Shown here piece by piece: positions 26,568 through 40,388 of a stretch of 64,000 bases of DNA. Every line of letters starts with the position of its first letter. The first letter of the stretch is position 1. The DNA is from Deinococcales bacterium (GTDB taxonomy: Bacteria; Deinococcota; Deinococci; Deinococcales; JAAFIG01), in the NCBI GenBank assembly GCA_013298595.1, contig JAAFIG010000013.1:56886-120885 (forward strand), given 5' to 3'. Made by a program: the position numbers and the translations under genes. The notes beneath the pieces are model-generated. The model saw nothing but the letters and a program-made list of their open reading frames with translations. It ran no database searches and was not told where the DNA came from.

Positions 26568-28064
26568 TTAAATTTGCTCGAGGTTCTGCAAAATATGCTT
26601 GGCTTGCTCGAGGATGGCTGCTTGGGTGGTTTGATCTCGTTTTTGCCAATTGGCAAGAATAATGCTCATTCGGGGATTCTTTGCCAGACTGAGCAAGTGT
26701 TGGTTAATAAAGTTCCAGTACAAACTGTTAAAAGGGCAGGCATTTGCGCCAATGGTTTCTTTGGGATTGTACTGGCAGTGCTGGCAATGGTTGCTCATGC
26801 GGTTGATATAGGCTGCACCGCTGATATACGGTTTAGAAGTGAAAGTGCCACCATCGGCGTATTGACTCATACCAATGACATTAGGTGTCACAACCCAATC
26901 AAAAGCATCGACAAAACCCAGTAAAAACCAATCATTAACCGCTTGCGGTCGGATACCTGCTAACAAAGCAAAGTTGCCAAGGATCATTAAACGCTGAATA
27001 TGGTGAGCATGACCAGTATTCCAGACTTGTGTTACAGCACTCGAGACACAGTGCATCTTGGTTTTGCTCGTCCAATAAAAATGAGGTAAGTCTCGAGTCA
27101 AGCTATACCCATTGGCTTCTCGGAAATCTGGCATCAGTGTACTGTAAATGTGGTGCATAAATTCGCGCCAACCAAGGATTTGTCGAATAAATCCCTCAAG
27201 ACTACTCAGTGGCACTTGATCAATGTACTTTAGCGCAGTTTCACAAACTTCTTTAGCGGTTAAAAGACCAAGGTTGATAGCAGGGGAGAGTAAACTATGG
27301 TAGAGCTGTGCTTGACCAACAACAATGGCATCTTCGTAAGCGCCAAAATCGTGCAACCGAAACTCGAGAAAATGATCCAGTACTTGCAAGGCTTGTTGAC
27401 GAGTAACAGCCCAGTTAAACTGCTCGAGTGTACCAAAATGATTGGCGAAGTGCTGTTCAATAAAGGCTTTTGTCTCGAGTGTGATTGCATCTGGTTTTAA
27501 TTCAAGTGGTTTTGGGAAAATATGATTTTTAGGTGGAACTAAGCGATTTTCACTATCAAAATTCCATTTGCCACCCAAGGGTTCCGAGCCATCCATGAGC
27601 CAATTGGTTTTGCGTCGCAACTGACGATAAAAAAATTCCATACGATACGATTTTTTATCCGCAGCATATGTTTGCCAATCGGCGTGGGTGGATAACCATA
27701 AACAGTTTTCTATGATCTCGAGCTGCCCATCAAGACCAGAAACGATGGTCTGTAGTTTTTCGGCAACCCCATATTCGGCAGGCTGCATGACCGTAATGGT
27801 TGCTTTCGGAAATTGCTGCAAATACGCAGCAAAGCCTTCTTCAAAAGTTTGACCTTGCCAATAAAAAACCTGAAAACCTTTTAACTCGAGTTCAACCTTA
27901 AAATGCCGCATGGCACTATAAAGCAACAGCAATTTTTGCTTATGGTACTGCATCACTTGACCTCGAGCAATGCTTTCAATCATCAGTATTTGAGTTTGCT
28001 TGGGTGGATATAAATCAAAACGCTCGAGATTTAATTGATCGCCTAGTACAAGCACATGCTGCAT
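26568..28064 (-). CDS. FeS-type cryptochrome/photolyase (PhrB-like)
   Basis: A 498-residue DNA photolyase-related protein. 'VLVLGDQLNLERFDLYPPKQ' opens the antenna domain. The C-terminal FAD domain has 'FIRQILGWREFMHHIYSTL' and 'AHHIQRLMILGNFALLAGIR'. The cysteines expected to hold a 4Fe-4S cluster are in 'MHCVSS' and 'HCQHCQYNPKETIGANACPF'. The family repairs (6-4) photoproducts with light or acts as a photoreceptor. TAGGCT ends 6 nt before the ATG, so it is probably leaderless. Confidence 0.92.
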   Translation of the reverse strand: MQHVLVLGDQLNLERFDLYPPKQTQILMIESIARGQVMQYHKQKLLLLYSAMRHFKVELELKGFQVFYWQGQTFEEGFAAYLQQFPKATITVMQPAEYGVAEKLQTIVSGLDGQLEIIENCLWLSTHADWQTYAADKKSYRMEFFYRQLRRKTNWLMDGSEPLGGKWNFDSENRLVPPKNHIFPKPLELKPDAITLETKAFIEQHFANHFGTLEQFNWAVTRQQALQVLDHFLEFRLHDFGAYEDAIVVGQAQLYHSLLSPAINLGLLTAKEVCETALKYIDQVPLSSLEGFIRQILGWREFMHHIYSTLMPDFREANGYSLTRDLPHFYWTSKTKMHCVSSAVTQVWNTGHAHHIQRLMILGNFALLAGIRPQAVNDWFLLGFVDAFDWVVTPNVIGMSQYADGGTFTSKPYISGAAYINRMSNHCQHCQYNPKETIGANACPFNSLYWNFINQHLLSLAKNPRMSIILANWQKRDQTTQAAILEQAKHILQNLEQI

Positions 28065-28149
28065 ATCCCGAGCCTACGCCGCGTGATCATTTTTAATTGT
28101 AAGCAATGCGTATTGTCTCCAGCCCTTCTCGTTTTTAGAAAAAACCGCT

Positions 28150-29115
28150 ATGCTCGAGATGATGTTAGATTCTTTTGAAAATTACGAAACCGATTCTCAG
28201 CACTTAGCCCGACAACTCGAGGCATTGCCACACAGTTACGATGGTGCAACTAGGGCTTTACCTGCACCTCATGGTGTGATTGGTTTTGGTGAGGGTGCAT
28301 TAGCAGCCGAACTGATGCGTTCCCTGATAGATGATGCCACGGTTTCTGGTGGTACACAATTTGTGCTGGCAGGTGGTTTGGATTTTGGGGCAGTGGATGC
28401 AGCCAGTGTAATTGCCGAGGCAGCAGGTGCAAAAGTGTTTCGTATGGGTTTACCACGTAGCAGTGTGCTGAGTATCTCCGAGGATGAATTATCGTATTCG
28501 CTCGAGGAAGACCCAGATGACGAACCTCGAGATGATTTTTTCCCTGTGCCGAGTCATAGTTTTAGTACCTACACCTATTCGCAAGCCTTGGCGTACCTGA
28601 CCAATCATGGCAAAGAAGCTCAAGCCGCCGATGCAGTGCTGGCGAAGTTGCGCGAACAATGCAAAACCGAAATCCCTACAGATCAAAATCCAGCTAAACA
28701 ACTGGCTTGGAGTTTATGGACCCGTACGCCAATTCTGATTCCAACCAGTGGTTTTACAGTGCAAGCTTGGGTTTGGCAACTTGCCCTCTCGAGACTTGGT
28801 AAAAGCCTGAGTATCCCCCTTGCTCATAATGCCCTCGAGATCATTGCCAGTGGTTTTGAAGCTCGTCATGAAAGTGGCGATGCTTTGGTGGCTTTGCTGA
28901 TTGGTAGCGAAGATCAGAATTTGGTAGTGGCAAAAGAAATTCTTGAAACTCGAGTAGACGAAGTCATCGAAGTGCCAGCCCCAGCAGGTGATGCCTACAC
29001 AGCCAATCTTGGCTTATGGTACATGGCATCATGGGTTGGTTTATACCTTGCCCTGCTTTACAAACAAGACCCAAAGGATAGCGCACCGCTCGAAACGGTA
29101 CGCAAAGCGCGATGA
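28150..29115 (+). CDS. SIS-domain protein, phosphoglucose/phosphomannose-isomerase-like
   Basis: A 321-residue cytoplasmic protein. The first half has a Gly-rich nucleotide-like fold ('GVIGFGEGALAAELMRSLI'). The second half ('KQLAWSLWTRTPILIPTSGF', 'GLWYMASWVGLYLALLYKQD') matches the C-terminal module of bifunctional phosphoglucose/phosphomannose isomerases. I do not see a clear catalytic triad, so it could be a sugar-phosphate-binding protein. Its stop overlaps the start of the HtrA-like gene (ATGA). Confidence 0.72.
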   Translation: MLEMMLDSFENYETDSQHLARQLEALPHSYDGATRALPAPHGVIGFGEGALAAELMRSLIDDATVSGGTQFVLAGGLDFGAVDAASVIAEAAGAKVFRMGLPRSSVLSISEDELSYSLEEDPDDEPRDDFFPVPSHSFSTYTYSQALAYLTNHGKEAQAADAVLAKLREQCKTEIPTDQNPAKQLAWSLWTRTPILIPTSGFTVQAWVWQLALSRLGKSLSIPLAHNALEIIASGFEARHESGDALVALLIGSEDQNLVVAKEILETRVDEVIEVPAPAGDAYTANLGLWYMASWVGLYLALLYKQDPKDSAPLETVRKAR

Positions 29116-35948: not shown

Positions 35949-36156
35949 CCAAATTGTGTTAATCAGTCGCGTATTTTGACTGATTAACCGACTAAGCGCG
36001 AACAGCCCGAAGGTGCTGTCTTGTGAGCAAGAAAAGGAGTAGCAACAAAACCAAATTAACGCTTGAAGCGCGAACAGCCCGTAAGGTGCTGTCTTGTGAG
36101 CAAGAACGACAGTTTGACCGCTTTTTGGTCAAACGAGAGTGATTAAGTTAATTTGG
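35949..36156. mobile_element. MITE-like non-autonomous element, 208 bp, with internal repeats and hairpins
   Basis: Imperfect terminal inverted repeats: CCAAATTGTGTTAATCA at 35949-35965 and TGATTAAGTTAATTTGG at 36140-36156 (14 of 17 matching). Inside are two ~40-bp direct repeats (35994-36033 and 36066-36106) sharing AAGCGCGAACAGCCCG and GGTGCTGTCTTGTGAGCAAG, each able to form ACAGC/GCTGT and CTTG/CAAG stems. There are two further hairpins, TTAATCAGTC/GACTGATTAA (35959-35987) and GTTTGACC/GGTCAAAC (36112-36134). It encodes no protein and contains no CTCGAG. ATA on both sides may be a short target duplication. Confidence 0.6.
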
Positions 36157-36210
36157 CATAAGGTAGGCTGGGCTACCCCATTGCAACCTTTTGGCTTTAC
36201 ACTGCGTATT

Positions 36211-36744
36211 ATGGGTATGGAACTCAAGACGCACCAGCAAGAAGTGGTCGAAGTTGTTGTAGCCGATGGTTCACGCGAACATGCCCAAACGCATGAATTA
36301 ATTCAGCAGCGTGCCATGTGGTGTGCAGCGGTTTCGTTGCAACCTATTCCGCTACTTGATACTGCGGTGATTATTCCAACCCATATCAATCTGGTTTTGG
36401 ATATTGGTAAAGTTTATGGTTTTAATATCACCCCGCAGCGGGCTAAAGAAATTGCGCTCGAGTTGGCTGGTACGATGGCGGTCAGTTATGCCACCAGAGT
36501 TGCAACCCGCAGTGCTTTAAAGGTGATTCCAGTGGTTGGTTGGATACTCAATGCACCTCTTGTGTATGCCAGTACTTTTGCTGTCGGAGGACTTGCCGAG
36601 CGGTACTTCCGAGCACGCCGACCAGAATTACCAGCTTTACCTGCAAGCGAACTCAGCCAGAATTTATTTGAACAAGGTAAAAAATTAGCGCAACAACTCG
36701 ATTGGCAAGAGCTGCTGCGCTTAGGACGCAAAAAACAAAATTAA
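36211..36744 (+). CDS. DUF697-family protein
   Basis: About 177 residues. 'MWCAAVSLQPIPLLDTAVII' and 'ALKVIPVVGWILNAPLVYAS' are hydrophobic segments typical of DUF697, a domain often attached to small GTPases; here it stands alone. It probably associates with the membrane. I prefer ATG 36211, with TACACT 7 nt upstream; a GTG at 36139 lies inside the MITE-like element and is unlikely. Its end overlaps the convergent RNase R-like gene by 4 nt. Confidence 0.82.
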   Translation: MGMELKTHQQEVVEVVVADGSREHAQTHELIQQRAMWCAAVSLQPIPLLDTAVIIPTHINLVLDIGKVYGFNITPQRAKEIALELAGTMAVSYATRVATRSALKVIPVVGWILNAPLVYASTFAVGGLAERYFRARRPELPALPASELSQNLFEQGKKLAQQLDWQELLRLGRKKQN

Positions 36745-39700
36745 GCGGCTGGTGGTTTATGACGTTGCGGACGGCGCTTAGGGCGACGATTGGCATCACC
36801 AGCAACCACTGCATCGCTCGAGGGCGCAGATGGTGCTGGGCTATGCTGAGCGCGGTTAGCGTTTCGCTCGAGGGCTTGTAATTGGCGTTGACGCAACTGT
36901 TCGATTCTCGAGTTGCGACTGAGATCTGGTTGGGCAGTTGTTGGTGGTGTGGTTGGGGTTACTGCTGCAGCGACTGGGTTGTTTGTGCGTTGCTGTTGTG
37001 GGTGCGGACGGCGAGGTTGGTGCTGACCCTGTGGTCGTTGTCCTCGAGGATCTGGGCTTCGAGCAGGACGGGTATCCTGATGCCGTGGTTGATGTGGACG
37101 GTGGGTATTGGTGCGTGGTGTTACTTCAAATTCGGGGTTATCACCCTCGAGTTCGGCAAATTTTTCTCGGCTCCATTCACCAAAGTACAATTTACGAGCG
37201 GTAATTCGTACAGGTCTTGGGTATTCAGCTCGGGGGCGGTTGCCAAGCACCACGACTCCGCGACGGGTAGGGCTTTTACCCACTGTGGTTTTGCTGCCAG
37301 CAACGGCATTGGCAGTTGAAGCGCCTGGTTTACGGCGGCGCAATCTGGTCATGTTTGACTCCTTCTGATAGAGACACAAACGTGCCTCTCGGGTGGCAGG
37401 ACGAGTGCTTTCAACAACCACTCGAACGATACTGCCAAGTTTGAAAACCCTTCCTAAACGGGTTTTCCATTGATTCGGTGAATAGGTTACTTCTTCACCG
37501 AGGTCTTCGACCAATAAGCGTCCAATTGCGCCTTGCTCGAGAACCAATTCTAAGGCAAATTGATCGATGCCAATCACCACACCGCGCATTGGAATGTGAA
37601 GCGGTAAGGTTTTGATCATTTCAAACTGCTCGAGGCTGGTGGCTGCGTGAACAGCGCGTTGCTCGAGCAGTTCTAATGGCTTTGTCAGTGTGGGCAAACT
37701 GGTTTTGAGGTGCTCGCGTTTGCGTTGCGATAATTTTGTGGCACACCAACCAAGGATTCGTACATTGAGAAAATCGGCAGCTAAACCCAGTGGTTGCTCG
37801 AGACAGAATTGTTGGTTGCCTTCGGTACTTTCGGCTGCGAGTAATTTGCTTTTTTCGGTTAAACGGGTTTTCAGGGTTTGAACCACTAAACTGTTTTGAT
37901 CAAAGCCACTCGAGCGTTCTAGCGCCGAGGGTAATTCAAAACTGGTGTTACCTGGTGTGCGGTACAAGGCGGTGATTTCTGCGCCACTAATCAGTGTGGC
38001 AGATAAATGATTGGCTAAGTTGAGGGTGCGTTCGACTCCACCGATTTGCATAAATAAATCGCGTTCGGTTTGGTTGGCTCCGCTGAGGGTAGCGGCAATA
38101 CTAATCACACTTGGGCGTACCACATAATTGACCACACCACCATCAGCTGTGGTTTCTATCAGAACCGATAAAGCAAGGCGTTCAGTGTTTGTCTCAAAAC
38201 GCAGTTGTGCTAGTAATACCTCTGGTAAAATGGATAGGGTTTCGCCACGCAGATTCACGTGAGCACCACGCTCGAGAATGGCGGCTTCTAAAGCGGTATT
38301 TTCGTCTATCCAGTAGCCAGCATCGGCATAATGGACTGCTAACAAAACATTGCCATTACCAAGTGGTTCGATTTGTACAGCAAGCTCGAGTCCTGGTAGG
38401 GCAAAGACTCGTTTGGCACGTAAATCAATCCGACCTTTGAGGTCTTTAGCGGTGATTGTGCCGAGTTTACTGGCTTCGCTTAGGGCTGCACTCGAGAATG
38501 GATTGGGCAGTTCAAGTCGAGCGATTAAAGCGGCTCTTTCGGCATTTAAACTGGCAGAATCACCAAGGATTTCACGAACTCGAGCCACAGCTTCGTCTTC
38601 GCCTGTGTCTTCTGGGTACAGCACATCAGCAAGGATTCGTGTGCCACTGGCAAGTAAAGCAGTGCTATCAAGCACCACACTTGGTAGGTTGGCTTGGTCT
38701 GGTCGTAAGACCGCATAGCCTCGTTGGTACTCGAGGGTGCCTGTCATGGTGTTGCGAACGCGTTCGAGAACCCGAATAACTTCGCCTTCGCTATGCCCAT
38801 TGCGGCGTAATTCTCGAGCTACAACTCGGTCGCCACTCCAAGCAAATAACAAGGCATTGGCTGGGATCAACATTGGGCGTAAACCAGGGGTTTCTGGTGT
38901 AAACCAACCACTGTTATCTTGGCGAATCTCGAGTTTACCAACCACAGCAGTCAGTTCTCGAGTGGCTTGGAAGGTGCCTTTGCGGATTGAACTGAGATAC
39001 CCTATTTGCTCGAGTTCGATTAATGCCTCTTCAATACCTTTGCGTCCGCCTAAACGGTTTTGTAAGACATCATCAAGTTCGGCGCTGAGTTCGCGGCTAT
39101 TAAAGCCATTGTTATTGGCACGGAAATACTCGAGGACTGCCTCGAGTGGGTTATGTAGAGCGCCTTGATGCGAGAAGACATGTTCTCGAGCTTCGCGGCG
39201 TAATCGCACCAGTTTCTTAGCAGCTGGGGCTTCAGGGATGATTTCTAGTGTTTCAGGATTGATTTGGGTTATTGGTTCTGTTGGTTCGGCAAACCCTTCG
39301 TCCTCGAGTTGTATGGCTGTTTCGGGTTCTGGTGTTTTACTATTTTTACCACGAACTCGAGCTTTGGGTTTTTCAACAGTTTCGGTCACAACAGCTTTTT
39401 TACGGGTTTTTACAGGTTTCTCGAGCTGAAGTACTTCGGTTGGTTTTTTAAGCGGAGGTACTTCGCTTGGCGTGCTTGTTTCTGGAATAGGTTCGACAGG
39501 AGCGCCTAATTCTAACGGGACATCAGCTTCAGAACTTGGTAATTGTTTTTTTGGTCGTCCTTTGGCTTTGGGTTTCACTATTTCAGGGGCAACCACAGCA
39601 ACTGGTTCGAGCAAAGGCTGGACGACATCTGTTTCGTTAACGATTTTGCGACGACGACCTCGAGCGGCAGGAGCGCTCAGCTCGGCTGGATTTTCGATAA

Positions 39701-39770
39701 CCACTTCTGTGGGCGGGATTTCGGCTTTGGGATTACGACGTAAACGGGGAGTACGAATTGACGTGCTAAT
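36741..39770 (-). CDS. RNase R/RNase II-like protein with a degenerate active site and long low-complexity tails
   Basis: About 1010 residues. 1-185: Pro/Glu/Lys-rich, disordered. About 190-260: RNase R-type winged helix ('GFNSRELSAELDDVLQNRLG'). Then cold-shock domains ('LEIRQDNSGWFTPETPGLRP') and a full RNB fold (about 440-680), an S1 domain (about 725-775, 'MRGVVIGIDQFALELVL') and an Arg/Pro/Gln-rich tail. The catalytic DPxxARDFDDA block is shortened to 'RVFALPGLELAVQIE' (near residue 450) with all four Asp gone, and 'SPIRRYADL' reads 'QPLGLAADF' (near 656). It is thus probably an RNA-binding pseudo-exonuclease. The best start is ATT 39770, 5 nt after AGGAG; TTG 39866 is the alternative. 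Confidence 0.85.
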   Translation of the reverse strand: MSTSIRTPRLRRNPKAEIPPTEVVIENPAELSAPAARGRRRKIVNETDVVQPLLEPVAVVAPEIVKPKAKGRPKKQLPSSEADVPLELGAPVEPIPETSTPSEVPPLKKPTEVLQLEKPVKTRKKAVVTETVEKPKARVRGKNSKTPEPETAIQLEDEGFAEPTEPITQINPETLEIIPEAPAAKKLVRLRREAREHVFSHQGALHNPLEAVLEYFRANNNGFNSRELSAELDDVLQNRLGGRKGIEEALIELEQIGYLSSIRKGTFQATRELTAVVGKLEIRQDNSGWFTPETPGLRPMLIPANALLFAWSGDRVVARELRRNGHSEGEVIRVLERVRNTMTGTLEYQRGYAVLRPDQANLPSVVLDSTALLASGTRILADVLYPEDTGEDEAVARVREILGDSASLNAERAALIARLELPNPFSSAALSEASKLGTITAKDLKGRIDLRAKRVFALPGLELAVQIEPLGNGNVLLAVHYADAGYWIDENTALEAAILERGAHVNLRGETLSILPEVLLAQLRFETNTERLALSVLIETTADGGVVNYVVRPSVISIAATLSGANQTERDLFMQIGGVERTLNLANHLSATLISGAEITALYRTPGNTSFELPSALERSSGFDQNSLVVQTLKTRLTEKSKLLAAESTEGNQQFCLEQPLGLAADFLNVRILGWCATKLSQRKREHLKTSLPTLTKPLELLEQRAVHAATSLEQFEMIKTLPLHIPMRGVVIGIDQFALELVLEQGAIGRLLVEDLGEEVTYSPNQWKTRLGRVFKLGSIVRVVVESTRPATREARLCLYQKESNMTRLRRRKPGASTANAVAGSKTTVGKSPTRRGVVVLGNRPRAEYPRPVRITARKLYFGEWSREKFAELEGDNPEFEVTPRTNTHRPHQPRHQDTRPARSPDPRGQRPQGQHQPRRPHPQQQRTNNPVAAAVTPTTPPTTAQPDLSRNSRIEQLRQRQLQALERNANRAQHSPAPSAPSSDAVVAGDANRRPKRRPQRHKPPAA

Positions 39771-39906
39771 GATGACTCCTATCGCATCACACGGGTTAGC
39801 CTCGAGAACATGGTTCGCGTAGCGCATAACCTCGATGCGCGGTATTTTTTTCGGTGTTCGCAACAATAGCCTTTGAAGCTATGCAACACCAACGATTTTG
39901 AGTATA
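39771..39906 (-). promoter_or_regulatory. Structured 5' leader and -10 box of the RNase R-like gene
   Basis: On the minus strand a TATACT box (39906-39901) is followed by about 130 nt of leader. It holds a two-part hairpin GGTGTT…ATAGC/GCTAT…AACACC (39890-39853), an A-rich linker, a second hairpin GCGCAT/ATGCGC (39840-39822) and then AGGAG at 39780-39776. The layout recalls leaders through which RNases control their own mRNA, which is inference. A weak TTGCTC -35 lies 19 bp upstream. Confidence 0.5.
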
Positions 39907-39919
39907 GCACAAAAGCCCT

Positions 39920-40321
39920 TTACTCGAGCAAATCTCGCAAATACTGTGGCACAGGAATGGCTCGTTTCTCAAAATCAGTGGCAATATGTTCAGTTGAACC
40001 TTCAGCAATCAGCGATTGATCGCTGGCTCGTTCGATGGCGTATTCAAAGCGAATTAACCGAGATTTTAGCAAGCCAACGCGGGTGGTTAAGAGCAATTCA
40101 TCATCAAAAAAGGCAGGTCGGCGATACTTGACTGCCACACCACTGACCACCAAAAGCACACCACGCTTCTCGACTTCGCGGTAGGGCAACCCCAGCGAAG
40201 TCATAAAATCCACGCGTCCCATCTCGAGCCAAATCACATAATTGCTGTGATGCGCGATTCCCATAGCATCGGTCTCGGCATATCTGACCTTGAATCGGGT
40301 TTGTGATTGTTTAACAAACAT
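39920..40321 (-). CDS. 4-hydroxybenzoyl-CoA-thioesterase-family (YbgC/FadM-like) acyl-CoA thioesterase
   Basis: A 133-residue hot-dog-fold thioesterase. 'VRYAETDAMGIAHHSNYVIW' carries the catalytic Asp and the HxxY segment of the family, and 'VAVKYRRPAFFDDELLL' is the second conserved strand. It hydrolyses short or medium acyl-CoA esters in the cytoplasm. I start at ATG 40321; nine codons further upstream overlap the divergent promoter region. Confidence 0.9.
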   Translation of the reverse strand: MFVKQSQTRFKVRYAETDAMGIAHHSNYVIWLEMGRVDFMTSLGLPYREVEKRGVLLVVSGVAVKYRRPAFFDDELLLTTRVGLLKSRLIRFEYAIERASDQSLIAEGSTEHIATDFEKRAIPVPQYLRDLLE

Positions 40322-40388
40322 ATAAGAGTAGCATACAAAATTTTGCAATCCTCGCAGGTCATGCCATAATCGCGTCAGAGGTTACATT

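Follow-up and report, generated by a model that had tools for sequence, protein, structure and literature searches.

Within 64,000 nucleotides of a Deinococcales genome (the window, meaning the whole stretch analysed), one long frame was described in an earlier note as a full-length RNase R-like protein that has lost all of its catalytic residues and is nevertheless maintained. The locus therefore raises two questions: whether an RNB-family enzyme has indeed become inactive without decaying, and what such a protein might do. The window belongs to a genome of 4.58 Mb that is 94.4% complete (G000). We compared it with three Deinococcales MAGs of the same family: JAAFJQ (G001), from the same genus as G000; JANYHH (G002), from a second genus; and JANXTZ (G003), from a third. 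The genomes that carry the degenerate version (G000, G001 and G002) are 91–94% complete. In G001 the gene lies on two contigs that share an identical 123-base stretch of its coding sequence where they overlap; once these are joined, the gene is intact.

Gene, domains and catalytic centre

The features of the locus are as follows.

36741..39770, minus strand: coding sequence of the degenerate RNase R, an open frame of ~1009 residues counted from the ATT at 39770
39768..39779, minus strand: Shine–Dalgarno GGAG (39776–39779) and apparent AUU start (39768–39770), conserved in 4/4 family genes
39213..39770, minus strand: low-complexity N-terminal tail, Pro/Glu/Lys-rich, with AT-hook-like RGRRRK and GRPKK patches; a similar tail occurs in the canonical G003 protein
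38949..39212, minus strand: winged-helix domain (TIGR02063 match from residue 242; AlphaFold2 model)
38769..38948, minus strand: cold-shock domain 1 (OB_RNB), the best conserved domain between species (75% identity, G000–G001)
38457..38759, minus strand: cold-shock domain 2, well kept at order-conserved columns
37632..38444, minus strand: RNB domain, which no longer has its catalytic centre and carries two large deletions within it (Pfam match; alignment)
38376..38402, minus strand: remnant of the catalytic Asp block, ALPGLELAV versus TIDGxDAKDFDDAI in relatives
about 37773..37799, minus strand: remnant of the FTSPIRRYPDL motif, reading LEQPLGLAADF
37371..37613, minus strand: S1 domain (AlphaFold2 model and structural matches)
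37152..37271, minus strand: C-terminal motif RRxVVVL..EYxRPVRxTARKLYFGEW, related to a motif found across the order
36744..37151, minus strand: low-complexity basic C-terminal tail, net charge about +12
39920..40348, minus strand: thioesterase-like gene (4HBT), upstream of the degenerate RNase R gene
36139–36744, plus strand: convergent DUF697/EcsC-like gene, whose stop codon overlaps the RNase R stop by a few bases

The frame at 36741–39770 is uninterrupted and encodes an intact RNB-family protein. The first NTG start in the open frame is a TTG at 39866, upstream of the ATT. The start region of rnr reads GGAGT, four variable bases, ATT and A(G/C)C in all four genomes of the family, in the degenerate and canonical genes alike. 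The ATT is the only credible start in G001 and G002, because there the frame has a stop directly upstream of it and then more than 35 codons without an NTG. Since position 39770 is an ATT preceded by GGAG, and the same combination occurs in all four family genes, 36741–39770 is probably the true coding sequence. A scan for Shine–Dalgarno and start combinations showed no evident AUU starts in the order's other families. In E. coli, infC and pcnB begin with AUU, a codon that renders their initiation IF3-sensitive; one may speculate that the start of the degenerate RNase R is likewise tied to the IF3 level.

The protein matches the Pfam RNB family (PF00773) above the curated cut-off (56.7 versus 29.3 bits, E 3e-15), which makes it a member of the RNB family, and two OB/CSD Pfam models match it below their cut-offs. 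Against the RNase R equivalog TIGR02063 (NCBIfam) it scores 137.8 bits, short of the cut-off of 597.85, and its N-terminal half alone matches well. Among solved structures, B. subtilis RNase R is the top match to its sequence (phmmer, 1.9e-27). An AlphaFold2 model of the core, computed from a 32-row alignment, predicts the whole WH-CSD-CSD-RNB-S1 fold (pLDDT 80.6, pTM 0.70); its RNB fold is partly imposed, and its compatibility with that fold is not independent proof, because the alignment included canonical relatives. An earlier model from five sequences (pLDDT 49) was discarded. Foldseek and VIA-align agree on the top match, a structure of B. subtilis RNase R on a 30S intermediate (Z 30.5), with other RNase R and Dis3-family structures close behind and Ssd1 at Z 28.5; the matches span Z 28–30 overall, and differences of less than 1 in Z count as ties. 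The open frame, the Pfam match and the predicted fold thus bear out the description of a full-length RNase R-like protein.

The catalytic centre was examined in an alignment of the three degenerate proteins and 35 canonical orthologues from their order. Of 176 columns that are at least 97% invariant, each degenerate protein keeps 70–72, with 16–22 deleted. The first, second and fourth catalytic Asp residues are deleted or replaced in all three, and the third is Glu in 3/3; the loss of the four Asp residues is thereby upheld, with the conserved Glu as a nuance. No intact catalytic Asp set was found elsewhere in the RNB domain in this alignment. The SPIRRY-type motif, also reported as degenerate, reads QPLGLA, QPLSRA or RGLSRH, so that its first (catalytic) Arg is replaced by Gly or Ser. 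The HFGL loop and the YNEVQ stretch are deleted, and about 90 residues are missing from the C-terminal half of the RNB domain. At columns conserved in at least 90% of sequences, the degenerate proteins keep 67% of cells in cold-shock domain 1, 77% in cold-shock domain 2, 41% in the N-terminal half of the RNB domain and 36% in S1; the C-terminal half of the RNB domain keeps 25%, with 26% deleted. Canonical control trios keep 86–88% across all such columns. The C-terminal motif RPV..T...YFGEW, present in most RNase R proteins of the order, is retained in the degenerate ones, and the basic N-terminal patches and basic C-terminal tail are common to the degenerate protein and canonical G003. Judged from these alignments, the loss of catalysis is close to certain; with its metal-binding Asp residues, catalytic Arg and RNA-channel loops gone, the protein is not expected to degrade RNA.

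Distribution and descent

The RNB family model finds a single match in G000, which is the degenerate gene itself, and one match each in G001 and G002, likewise degenerate with an intact frame; the altered site thus recurs both within the genus and in a second genus. G003 encodes one full canonical RNase R. All other relatives of the order that were read are also canonical, and every canonical one keeps DGxDAKDFDD and FTSPIRRYPDL. An RNB match is present in 51/51 genomes of the set that are at least 90% complete with low contamination. There is no second RNB protein in G000, G001 or G002 as judged with the family model and the canonical RNase R profile, the latter otherwise matching only S1 domains of other proteins. 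The proposal that the degenerate protein competes with the true RNase R therefore falls, because no true RNase R was found for it to compete with.

In a maximum-likelihood tree, rooted at the midpoint for drawing, the degenerate proteins are monophyletic (100/100), and together with G003 they group against all other families (100/99). The stem of the degenerate clade measures 0.88 changes per column, versus 0.20 for G003. Because the degenerate proteins form one clade with a long stem, a single inactivation event is probable: the protein is probably a direct orthologue of RNase R in the rest of the order, and its inactivation would date to the ancestor shared by the two genera. Most simply, the lineage's own RNase R became inactive once, after the line to G003 had branched off; a duplication in which the active copy later disappeared is a conceivable alternative route.

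RNase R-like proteins are also encoded by at least 80 putatively viral IMG/VR contigs (L052–L131), some of them longer than 300 kb, and all 43 that were translated keep the canonical catalytic motifs. A scan of viral contigs with the degenerate protein as the query gave no match.

A further observation concerns hexamer counts in these genomes. The palindrome CTCGAG, expected about 6 times in the 64 kb window, is present there in 412 copies; the 4.58 Mb of G000 contain 27,159 (one per 169 bases) but just 15 copies of GAGCTC. The count is 26,600–28,200 in all four genomes of the family, 21,868 in G012, 13,552 in G008 and lower in the others. Beside this excess, TTCGAA is absent from the window, versus about 19 copies expected. 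The CTCGAG excess resembles cyanobacterial HIP1; a paper on HIP mentions neither CTCGAG nor Deinococcus (PMC4390886).

Selection, proposed function and alternatives

We consider it reasonably likely that the protein is a non-catalytic RNA- or ribosome-binding protein derived from the lineage's only RNase R. RNA binding by the cold-shock and S1 domains, and ribosome contact by the basic tail, are established for other RNase R proteins. The inactivated protein was kept as the only RNB protein found in the lineage, retaining its cold-shock domains, YFGEW motif and basic tails along with the predicted WH-CSD-CSD-RNB-S1 body. Through the cold-shock domains, tails and S1, it may bind, but not cut, RNA or the small ribosomal subunit, and could serve as a factor in translation, RNA protection or ribosome quality control, akin to fungal Ssd1. 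PNPase and RNase PH would be the remaining candidates for 3'–5' exonuclease activity. In E. coli RNase R, the K/R-rich C-terminal extension is required for ribosome association during trans-translation (PMC12320835). The suggestion in the earlier note of an RNA-binding scaffold is plausible and is the reading favoured here. Against a binding role stand the low retention in S1 (36% of conserved cells), the fast evolution of the protein and the presence of smpB as a neighbour in one genome only.

The genomic context gives little clue to function. The thioesterase gene is the only shared neighbour, in the same orientation in G000 and G001. In G002, smpB (L033:4960-5433) adjoins the degenerate gene (L033:5753-9013) divergently. 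All four genomes of the family contain tmRNA and SmpB, and G000 also contains PNPase and RNase PH. An apparently truncated PNPase in G000 (a 524-residue frame) was rejected, as the gene runs off the contig end. This context bears on an alternative in which the protein is a scaffold of a degradation complex whose target is a protein, such as SmpB, a helicase or PNPase, rather than RNA. The smpB adjacency, the presence of PNPase and an order-wide C-terminal motif kept independently of catalysis would fit such a scaffold; however, the partner is hypothetical and the cold-shock domains are among the better kept parts, so that contact with nucleic acid is favoured and we regard a protein target as rather unlikely.

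Slow decay, in which catalysis was lost by relaxed selection and a functionless remnant happens to be still unbroken, is less probable again. It would account for the long stem, the large deletions in the RNB domain and an evolutionary rate above that of SmpB, PNPase and the thioesterase. Between G000 and G001 the degenerate protein is 55% identical, versus 86% for SmpB and 90% for the thioesterase; between G000 and G002 it is 39% identical, versus 77% for PNPase. Constraint is thus weaker than on these housekeeping genes. Nevertheless, the G000–G001 comparison gives dN 0.38 and dS 1.81, a dN/dS of about 0.2, for the one pair in which dS is not saturated. Counted from the first NTG start, the open frames of the three species run to 1041, 1008 and 1086 codons with zero internal stops across genus-level divergence, whereas neutral simulation at 0.9 changes per site produced ~39 stops on average and at least 27 (200 runs). 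The parts of the protein also differ in conservation, which is highest in the cold-shock domains and the C-terminal motif. From the coding sequences, selection still acts on the gene, and the view that it is maintained rather than decaying holds in three species and agrees with the confident predicted fold.

Two further alternatives are very improbable. Weak cutting by a residual or rebuilt active site could use the Glu that is invariant at the third Asp position, and Dss1 tolerates one Asp-to-Glu change in its signature (PMC8097288), but nothing is left of the other three Asp residues, the catalytic Arg, HFGL or YNEVQ. An assembly or binning artefact, with a canonical RNase R missing and the degenerate protein a second paralogue, draws on the three relatives being MAGs and on the incompleteness of the genomes, but three separate genomes lack a canonical copy (multiplying their missing fractions gives about 3 in 10,000) and the canonical profile found, beyond the degenerate gene, just S1 domains of other proteins.

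Relation to known RNB proteins and significance

The non-catalytic RNA- or ribosome-binding reading can be set beside three known groups. Bacterial RNase R (B. subtilis 8cdu, E. coli 5xgu, M. genitalium 7dic) resembles the protein in domain order, predicted fold (Z about 30), basic tails and descent, but the degenerate protein has neither the catalytic Asp set nor the catalytic Arg or HFGL, and ~90 residues are missing from its RNB domain. The Deinococcus radiodurans RNase II-family protein (2r7d) comes from the same phylum and also combines RNB with S1 (Z 28.2 across 363 residues); it is, however, a separate and shorter protein that matches only part of the model.

The closest parallel in kind is fungal Ssd1/Sts5 (7am1), an ex-enzyme of the RNB family that likewise lacks catalytic residues and keeps an intact fold and its cold-shock domains (PMC8934651, PMC8097288). 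The RNA-binding site of Ssd1 is the outer face of its cold-shock domains (PMC8934651). Both are RNB proteins that are maintained without the catalytic Asp residues. Nevertheless, there are clear differences. The first is origin: the degenerate protein arose independently and groups with the canonical RNase R of its family, rather than being derived from Dis3L2. The second is the route of inactivation, as the catalytic region is deleted here and Ssd1 is blocked by added loops. The third is that Ssd1 coexists with active Dis3, whereas no active RNB protein was found beside the degenerate RNase R.

A search of the searchable literature found no bacterial RNB pseudonucleases, the documented cases being fungal (Ssd1). 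What is new is most likely a bacterial RNB pseudonuclease of an origin separate from that of Ssd1, with a canonical sister in the same family. More tentatively, the lineage may have given up RNase R/II hydrolysis, and the protein may be the first bacterial RNB pseudonuclease, an AUU-started ribosome- or RNA-binding regulator with a possible tie to IF3. The non-catalytic roles of RNase R, ribosome contact and RNA binding, would here be separated from catalysis, which raises the question of how, lacking a hydrolytic RNB enzyme, these bacteria handle structured RNA, the turnover of rRNA and trans-translation.
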